Of a stretch of 64,000 nt of DNA, positions 45,281 to 46,556 are shown in pieces. The first letter of the stretch is position 1; every line of letters begins with the position of its first letter. Position numbers and translations under genes: made by a program. The stretch spans positions 186,001 through 250,000 of the forward strand of contig NZ_JBFEFL010000001.1 of NCBI RefSeq assembly GCF_040717445.1, given 5' to 3'. The DNA is from Qipengyuania sp. JC766 (GTDB lineage Bacteria > Pseudomonadota > Alphaproteobacteria > Sphingomonadales > Sphingomonadaceae). The notes below the pieces were generated by a model. That model did no database searches, was not told the DNA's origin, and was given only the letters and a program-made list of their open reading frames with translations.

Positions 45281-45613
45281 TCACGCATCCTCCAGCAGCA
45301 GGATTTCGCACGTGACGGTCATTCGCGGGGCGGGCAGCAGGACGTGGTCCACCGCGACCACGTCCGCCGAAGCGACCAGCCGGCCGGCAATCGCGAATTC
45401 GTGGTCGGGGAGCAGCGCCACGAACCGTTCGCCGGCTTCGACCGCCGGCGCGCCGGTAAAGACCAGCTCGAGCGTATGGCGCGATCCGGCAAAGGTGATG
45501 CTGGCCCACGCGCGTTCGGCGTGGGCGATCAGTTCGGCCTGATCGCCCGCCAGTGCCATGACGGCACGGCGCAGTTTCTCGCCGGCGGAGCGGGGGACGA
45601 ACCTACCGTGCAT
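45281..45613 (-). CDS. Unknown 110-residue protein in the SOS-box operon
   Basis: The 110-residue product starts 'MHGRFVPRSAGEKLRRAVMA' and has an alternating helix/strand pattern ending in a strand-rich region ('VVAVDHVLLPAPRMTVTCEI'). I recognise no family. It has no signal peptide or membrane segment. It overlaps the end of the upstream helix-turn-helix-like gene by 11 bp, so the two are translated from one message. The divergent promoter holds an SOS box, so damage-inducible expression is the best available clue to its role. Confidence 0.7.
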   Translation of the reverse strand: MHGRFVPRSAGEKLRRAVMALAGDQAELIAHAERAWASITFAGSRHTLELVFTGAPAVEAGERFVALLPDHEFAIAGRLVASADVVAVDHVLLPAPRMTVTCEILLLEDA

Positions 45614-45791
45614 CGGCCATCTCCTGGTAGGCGCGCATGAAGGTTTCGACCCGCCGCTCCATCGGCGTGCCGGGCGTGCGGCCACGCCTGAGGTCGTGGA
45701 CGAAACGCGGGTCGCGTGTGGCGAGCCGCCCGAATTTGGTGGGCGGCATGTCGTGCTTGCGCAGGAATTTCTCGATGGACCGGATGAGCAT
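45603..45791 (-). CDS. Compact helix-turn-helix-like protein in the SOS-box operon
   Basis: The 62-residue basic product 'MLIRSIEKFLRKHDMPPTKF' continues with 'GRLATRDPRFVHDLRRGRTP', which resembles a small phage Cro-like or XRE helix-turn-helix. The start at 45791 was chosen because an upstream in-frame ATG at 45857 would cross the SOS box. The gene is first in a two-gene operon with the 110-residue protein. Confidence 0.7.
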   Translation of the reverse strand: MLIRSIEKFLRKHDMPPTKFGRLATRDPRFVHDLRRGRTPGTPMERRVETFMRAYQEMADAR

Positions 45792-45835
45792 GGATGTTCC
45801 TTGTTTGGCTGACGAATCGAGGCTCGCGCTGCGAG

Positions 45836-45850
45836 GAACAAATATGGAAC
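45836..45850. promoter_or_regulatory. LexA SOS box in the divergent promoter
   Basis: GAAC (45836-45839), seven bases, GAAC (45847-45850): read on the minus strand this is GTTC-N7-GTTC, the alphaproteobacterial LexA site, with CATATT (a -10-like hexamer) in its spacer. It lies 45 bp before the ATG of the minus operon. LexA binding there would block that promoter. Confidence 0.75.
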
Positions 45851-45864
45851 AAACCAAATCCTAC

Positions 45865-45900
45865 TTGTCTAGGAAAATTCCTATCGCTATGGAAATTCGA
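45865..45900 (+). promoter_or_regulatory. Promoter and likely operator of the S24 repressor gene
   Basis: TTGTCT (45865-45870) and TATGGA (45888-45893) are 17 bp apart, so transcription would begin at about the A of the ATG at 45900, giving a leaderless message. The inverted repeat AGGAA-AA-TTCCT (45871-45882) fills the spacer and a related GGAAATTC (45891-45898) follows. No ribosome-binding site is visible. Confidence 0.5.
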
Positions 45901-46556
45901 TGAGCGACATGACCCGTGACGAGATGATTGCCCGCGCGCGCCTGCACGATCTGGCGCAGGTGCGCGGCGTCAGCCTCAAGGGCCTGTCCGAAATGCTGGG
46001 AAAGAATAGCGCGTATCTTCAGCAGTTTATGACGCGCGGAACGCCGCGCCGCCTGCAGGAGGACGACCGGCGGACGCTGGCGGAATTCTTCGGCGTGGCG
46101 GAAACGGAGCTGGGCGGGCCGGAGGAAAAATCCTCACGCCGCGCGAGTCGCGGGGACTGGGTAGACGTGCCGCGCCTGCCGCTGGGCGCATCGGCCGGCC
46201 CGGGCGCGCTGGCGGCGGAGGAACAGGCGTTCGACGGCTTCCGCTTCTCCCGCCGCTGGCTGCGCGAGCAGGGGCTGGGCGATGCGCAGCTGTCCGCGAT
46301 CACGGTGGAAGGGGATTCGATGGAGCCGGTGCTGCGCGACGGCGACGAAGTCCTCGTCGACCGCACCCCGCGCCCCTTCCAGGACGGTATTTACGTCCTG
46401 CGCCACGGAGAGGCCCTGCTGGTCAAGCGCGTCTCCAGCCGAGGCGCGGGCCGCTTCCTGCTGGTGAGCGCCAACAAAGCCTACCCGCCGATCGAGGTCT
46501 CCGCCGGAGAAATCGACATCATCGGCCGCGTGGTCTGGAAGGGCGGGCGAGTGTGA
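45900..46556 (+). CDS. S24-family self-cleaving repressor (LexA/CI-like)
   Basis: The 218-residue product has an N-terminal DNA-binding region (about 10-60, 'GVSLKGLSEMLGKNSAYLQQ') and a C-terminal S24 domain with catalytic Ser140 ('EGDSMEPVLRDGDEV') and Lys176 ('LLVKRVSS'). An Ala99-Gly100 pair ('ASAGPG') just before the protease domain is the likely self-cleavage site. It is distinct from the housekeeping LexA, which has a winged N terminus. RecA-stimulated cleavage during damage would relieve its repression. It is divergent from the SOS-box operon and is followed closely by a Sel1-like gene. Confidence 0.88.
   Translation: MSDMTRDEMIARARLHDLAQVRGVSLKGLSEMLGKNSAYLQQFMTRGTPRRLQEDDRRTLAEFFGVAETELGGPEEKSSRRASRGDWVDVPRLPLGASAGPGALAAEEQAFDGFRFSRRWLREQGLGDAQLSAITVEGDSMEPVLRDGDEVLVDRTPRPFQDGIYVLRHGEALLVKRVSSRGAGRFLLVSANKAYPPIEVSAGEIDIIGRVVWKGGRV

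Follow-up and report, generated by a model that had tools for sequence, protein, structure and literature searches.

A conserved unit of a phage-type S24 repressor, a Cro-like gene and a small gene in sphingomonads, with a LexA-type box in some lineages

Does a perfect LexA-type sequence in front of two small genes mark a damage-inducible operon, and is LexA the regulator on which such an operon depends? The question is raised by a locus of Qipengyuania sp. JC766 that lies in a stretch of 64,000 nucleotides, analysed as a whole and called the window here. The preliminary description had reported GTTC-N7-GTTC on the minus strand at 45836-45850, which is the alphaproteobacterial LexA (SOS) box as given in the available parts of PMC7987155 and PMC8565304, and had proposed that it controls an operon of two genes. 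The box is indeed present and perfect: the plus-strand letters are GAACAAATATGGAAC, read on the minus strand as GTTCCATATTTGTTC, and the window has no second perfect GTTC-N7-GTTC. The features of the locus are listed below by their positions in the window; here and throughout, family, order and class are those of the source genome.

45281..45613, minus strand: gene B, 110 residues, predicted helix-hairpin-helix-hairpin fold
45603..45791, minus strand: gene A (62 residues), predicted DNA-binding protein of lambda-repressor-like (Cro-like) type
45814..45818, no strand assigned: GANTC site (GAATC) between the box and gene A, possible CcrM/GcrA input
45836..45850, minus strand: LexA (SOS) box GTTCCATATTTGTTC, a pattern match supported by comparison among relatives
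45859..45874, minus strand: operator-like sequence TCCTAGACAAGTAGGA, by its conservation a putative binding site of the S24 repressor
45870..45883, plus strand: palindrome TAGGA-N4-TCCTA, overlapping TCCTAGACAAGTAGGA; the same form stands beside S24 genes in loci L133 and L142, from other families of the order, and in L149, from a different family of the class
45900..46556, plus strand: CI-type S24 repressor, 218 residues, with Ala99-Gly100, Ser140 and Lys176, assigned by PF00717, phrog_4 and kept residues

The operon itself was described correctly: genes A and B (62 and 110 codons, both on the minus strand) overlap by 11 bases, and no known SOS gene was recognised among them. The upstream placement of the box also stands, although the distance to the ATG of gene A at 45791 is 44 bases and not the 45 given before. 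A shared region of 108 bases separates gene A from the divergent S24 gene on the plus strand, with the box 49 bases from the S24 start and 17 bases from the GANTC site; no RNA family was found at gathering scores. Taken by itself the box in the window is not significant, because shuffling gives a mean of 1.83 such sites per window (at least one in 87 of 100 shuffles) and 83 perfect sites occur across the whole source genome. The count in the window alone is therefore insufficient to reject a chance box, which was rejected on the comparison among 104 loci.

The loci for this comparison were collected mostly through gene B. The first 80 came from 79 of the 118 genomes with a gene B match, and later ones from nine more gene B genomes and from eight genomes without a gene B match at 1e-5. 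Leaving out L030 and L088 (contig edges) and L099 (a second B-like match of genome G097, with no gene A) reduced 93 loci to 90. For the larger set, L056, L059 and L066 gave way to those pieces of their genomes that carry the operator (L123, L121 and L122). With 17 additional loci the total was 107, and removal of L097, L098 and L104, all with more than three operator mismatches, left 104. Twenty of the later loci were chosen for an exact operator, so that operator counts in the 104-locus set are biased; box counts in this set involve no selection on the box.

A match to the S24 family was found in 86 of the 93 loci, and in all 86 it lies on the strand opposite to gene A. The seven S24-less loci comprise three at a contig edge (L030, L088 and L104), the second B-like match L099, and L056, L059 and L066, whose S24 gene stands beside an operator copy elsewhere in the same genome. 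Judged by this comparison the S24 gene, the Cro-like gene and the 110-residue gene are one conserved unit. In the window the S24 protein matches PF00717 at 3.6e-22, above the cut-off, and the phage repressor family phrog_4 at 3.2e-41 over residues 5-215. Its N-terminal helix-turn-helix is covered by phrog_4, and Pfam HTH_31 stays below its cut-off; the phrog and Pfam names are used here as labels, which do not test function. Among 86 aligned S24 rows (one of them a fragment) the cleavage-site Ala and Gly are each kept in 84, and the catalytic Ser and Lys each in 85. The source genome has only two S24 matches, LexA and the 45900-46556 protein, and the latter is by its sequence a CI-type relative of LexA with the cleavage site and the Ser/Lys dyad intact.

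What is most constant in the shared region is not the LexA box. Of the 90 loci obtained by way of gene B, 78 have the exact sequence TCCTAGACAAGTAGGA, whose conserved columns are TTTTTCCTAGACAAGTAGGATTT, and 84 have it with at most three mismatches. It was found exact in 95 of 149 genomes of the family, never in two copies in one genome, and in four of 385 class-wide genomes, all four from the same family. The simplest reading of this conservation is that TCCTAGACAAGTAGGA is the dedicated operator of the divergent S24 repressor. A large S24 regulon was considered and rejected, since the source genome holds a single perfect TCCTA-N6-TAGGA (six further places have one mismatch) and no family genome has two exact operators. 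Conservation thus presents the divergent S24 repressor with its operator-like sequence, and not LexA, as the constant regulator of the unit. Between the operator and gene A a GANTC site is present in 86 of 90 loci (mean 19.4 and maximum 30 in 200 shuffles), and GcrA is encoded in the source genome, which together hint at an input from the cell cycle. LexA boxes can overlap GANTC sites, according to the accessible text of PMC7987155.

The occurrence of the box before orthologous operons, proposed earlier as a check, was only partly as expected. It is intact in 36 of 104 aligned promoter relatives, far above the 0.08 expected from shuffles, which in both the 90-locus and the 104-locus set kept base composition only and treat related genomes as if they were independent; in the other 68 loci it is absent. 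In the first set it was found between the operator and gene A in 24 of 90 usable loci. The mismatch counts are nearly all-or-none, with 0, 1, 2, 3 and 4 mismatches in 36, 4, 10, 42 and 12 of the 104 loci versus 0.08, 2.8, 26, 64 and 11 after shuffling. Relative to the operator-like sequence all 36 boxes are on the side of gene A, exactly 9 bases past it in 20 of them, and 32 of the 36 have the orientation opposite to that in the window. When a model of the 7-base spacer was built from the other 35 boxes, the window's box ranked second of the 83 sites of the source genome. The sites before imuA, lexA, uvrA and recA ranked 8th, 13th, 16th and 19th, those of uvrA and recA with scores of about zero or below; we take the downstream genes to be these four by eye, and lexA also by its S24 match.

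The state of the box also follows kinship. On a tree of the S24 proteins (the 102 rows whose S24 sequence reaches 150 residues or more) it needs 15 changes versus 29.2 with shuffled labels, and none of 500 shuffles was as low. One branch carries the box in 14 of 16 rows and the other deep half in 14 of 28, and the rows nearest to the window, L036 and L053, both have it. Because an intact box is present in 36 of 104 loci and the spacer of the window's box ranks second of 83, the box is above chance, and by this comparison it is a genuine feature that part of the family has kept. The earlier proposal that an SOS box controls the operon is in this respect well supported by comparison, as LexA control of the A-B promoter, although it missed the S24 repressor. 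The 68 loci without a box indicate that the unit does not generally require LexA.

Some of the loci carry another element in the same place. Past the operator, 12 of the 104 loci have an extra TAGGA-N4-TCCTA with at most two mismatches, against a mean of 1.8 and a maximum of 6 in shuffles. It falls within the stretch that elsewhere holds the LexA box, and nine of these loci have it at offset 14. Box and extra palindrome never occur together (0 of 104 loci; Fisher p 0.007, kinship ignored), an exclusion which is partly mechanical because the two overlap in position, and 56 of 104 loci have neither. The LexA-type box with the highest score in the source genome, GTTCTCTATTTGTTC, is outside the window. 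It lies just under 100 bases before an ORF of 82 codons with a hydrophobic N-terminus (L009:2095-2343, plus strand; G000:C1:1035394-1035642), possibly a small membrane protein induced in the SOS response.

A gene B match is present in 118 of 149 genomes of the family, as a single copy in 117. With a broader alignment it was found in 27 of 60 genomes of the order, that is in 14 of 14 from the family and 13 of 46 others, while a draw from the class gave three of 190, all three from the family. Among the relatives that bear names are Qipengyuania, Erythrobacter, Croceicoccus, Porphyrobacter, Altererythrobacter and an uncultured member of Sphingomonadaceae. Among 190 genomes of the class, 16 have relatives of gene A, and 13 of the 16 do not belong to the family. 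Of six such loci, four have an S24-profile match on the opposite strand (L147, L149, L151 and, weakly, L152), and none was found at L148 and L150. Some gene A-S24 pairs of other families adjoin genes that, by eye, we take to be phage-like. The occurrence of these pairs elsewhere, some of them in such company, suggests that a phage CI/Cro pair became resident and then acquired gene B.

Several loci depart from the usual arrangement. In L121, L122 and L123 other DNA splits the operator/S24 half from the A-B half, which indicates that the arrangement can be lost; in L122 the intervening DNA includes an ORF that by eye is presumably transposase-like. In L113 (genome G027) operator, S24 gene and LexA box are present, gene A is partial and there is no clear gene B nearby, and this copy of the unit seems to be decaying. 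L133-L144, from other families of the order, have S24 and B together, but a gene A could not be recognised; a different ORF, of some 130-146 codons, separates the two in L133 and L143.

The products of genes A and B were examined by predicted structure and by family searches. Gene A is predicted (pLDDT 90.9) to form a lambda-repressor-like helical domain. It has no match in Pfam, NCBIfam, PHROGs or PADLOC, and its Foldseek matches all have E-values above 1, many of them being lambda-repressor-like domains, e.g. DdrO, P22 C2 and 434 Cro. The name Cro-like, as given before, may thus be kept at the level of the fold, on the predicted domain and weak fold matches only. Gene B (pLDDT 90.7) is predicted as helix, hairpin, helix, hairpin, and in 30 diverse members W36, S38, F41, G43 and L105 are invariant. 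Among solved structures gene B comes closest to a chain from the native GTA particle (Z 10.7 over 100 residues, 2.7 A), followed by numerous chains of phage tails and necks; in Foldseek no E-value is better than 1.5e-3. PilO is close at Z 9.2, and the fold is therefore possibly just a common arrangement. Collagenase domains, PilO and S6 permutants among the structure matches were not used as functional evidence. Gene B has no Pfam, NCBIfam or PADLOC family and just two weak PHROGs hits (E 0.07 and 0.33), and no sequence relation to tail terminators was found. No relative of gene B was found in 50,697 phage records (E 0.01) or 72,556 plasmid records (E 0.001), nor in viral contigs by a pattern scan sensitive to close relatives only, and gene A has none in the phage records. 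That the two genes are phage or plasmid cargo was rejected on these grounds.

From these results we think it probable that the unit is a CI/Cro switch of phage type which has been domesticated and responds to DNA damage, locked by its own repressor and, in some lineages, also by LexA. We infer that the S24 repressor would sit on the TCCTA/TAGGA sites of the 108-base region and keep both its own gene and A-B low. RecA filaments formed at damaged DNA would then induce the repressor to cut itself at Ala99-Gly100, and the A-B promoter would be freed. In the source genome and some lineages LexA on the adjoining GTTC-N7-GTTC box may act as a second lock, and A-B would open fully only once both repressors were cut. 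No consensus promoter came out of a simple scan; we therefore claim no promoter position, and no start site backs either lock. Gene A, being Cro-like, would then most likely act on the same sites and restrain the S24 gene. Gene B, probably translated in coupling with A, may be the output of the switch and most likely acts by binding another protein, such as the gene A product, the S24 repressor (in the way that DdrR assists UmuDAb) or a target in the cell.

Other explanations of the locus have to be weighed against this one. The LexA box might be a chance or decaying sequence, with the S24 repressor alone in control of A-B; the 1.8 boxes expected per window, the orientation, which the window's box shares with few of the 36, and the 68 of 104 boxless loci would agree with it. 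We regard this as quite improbable, given the all-or-none mismatch counts, the spacer rank (2 of 83) and the boxes of the tree neighbours L036 and L053. It is also conceivable that the box mainly serves the S24 gene, so that LexA represses the second repressor and damage refills it, as a delayed off-switch. The shared region is short (108 bases) and the box is nearly as close to the S24 gene (49 bases) as to gene A (44), but its position on the gene A side of the operator in all 36 loci, at 9 bases after it in 20, makes this unlikely.

The unit could also be a leftover prophage or GTA regulator of genes for virus-like particles elsewhere, gene B being a former tail protein. This would fit the phage repressor family of the S24 protein, the GTA particle chain and the phage tail and neck chains among the structure matches of gene B, and the pairs in other families that stand, by eye, beside phage-like genes. 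Against this are the close score of PilO, the poor Foldseek E-values, the lack of a sequence relation or of a match in the phage records at E 0.01, and an exact operator that never occurs twice per genome, and we consider it likewise unlikely. Two small overlapping genes, one with the antitoxins HigA and HipB among its weak fold matches, might finally be taken for a toxin-antitoxin pair or a defence pair whose promoter responds to SOS. No PADLOC match was found, gene B has no toxin-like match, and it is present in 118 of 149 family genomes, once in 117, and in none of the plasmid records, so that such a pair appears highly improbable.

A broader version of the domesticated switch is more tentative, and we would put it forward as a possibility that has somewhat less than an even chance. 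According to it a phage CI/Cro switch was domesticated among ancestors of the sphingomonads and its near-invariant operator was kept in most of the family, SOS wiring then varying by a swap of the LexA box versus an extra operator copy. A gate of two repressors would so have been placed on a new damage effector, gene B, the conserved GANTC possibly tying it to the CcrM/GcrA cell cycle. If true, the locus would offer a naturally occurring example of one promoter guarded by two S24 repressors, LexA and a tamed one of phage origin, within a single genome. Gene B would be an uncharacterised output of the damage response, its fold predicted well and its core strongly conserved. The route from a captured phage repressor to the SOS network, which is discussed in the available parts of PMC13148647 and PMC8565304, would be testable in a family of many genomes with the box present, absent or replaced. 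A literature search, with subscription papers mostly outside its reach, recognised no paper dealing with the S24-A-B unit.

In temperate phages the CI/Cro switch pairs an S24 repressor that cleaves itself with a divergently encoded small helix-turn-helix protein, and operators lie between the two. Unlike it, the sphingomonad unit is chromosomal and nearly single-copy across the family, and has the extra gene B and, in some lineages, the LexA box. Cleavage of CI and C2 is mentioned in the accessible text of PMC8565304, from which it also appears that some phages have their lytic genes repressed by the host LexA and that the SOS response of Bacteroidetes is run by phage-like repressors. The available portions of PMC13148647, PMC11332147 and PMC8565304 describe no system that combines LexA with a phage-type repressor at a single promoter.

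The closest described system is FddR of Francisella, where, in the excerpts of PMC13148647, a co-opted phage-type S24 repressor has a palindromic site, GTG-N11-CAC, in a promoter common to an uncharacterised divergent gene. As far as this source goes, the two are alike in the S24 repressor, in the site within the shared promoter, which here was recognised by its conservation, and in being small, self-contained and conserved. Unlike FddR, the present unit belongs to a different group of bacteria, has two divergent genes, one of them Cro-like, and has the conserved columns TTTTTCCTAGACAAGTAGGATTT in which GTG-N11-CAC is absent; it is for this last reason described as working like FddR and not filed as FddR. 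In Acinetobacter the S24-type repressor UmuDAb and the small group-unique protein DdrR have a common ddrR-umuDAb promoter region (PMC11332147, accessible part). The likeness is one of layout, and unlike the genome of the sphingomonad unit Acinetobacter is without LexA according to the same part. With the LexA (SOS) regulon of Alphaproteobacteria the unit has in common the box sequence, the spacer preference and the place before genes, but these are not recognised SOS genes, and a second, dedicated repressor is present. The description as a domesticated CI/Cro switch, with gating by LexA in some lineages, fits the unit better than that of a plain SOS operon.
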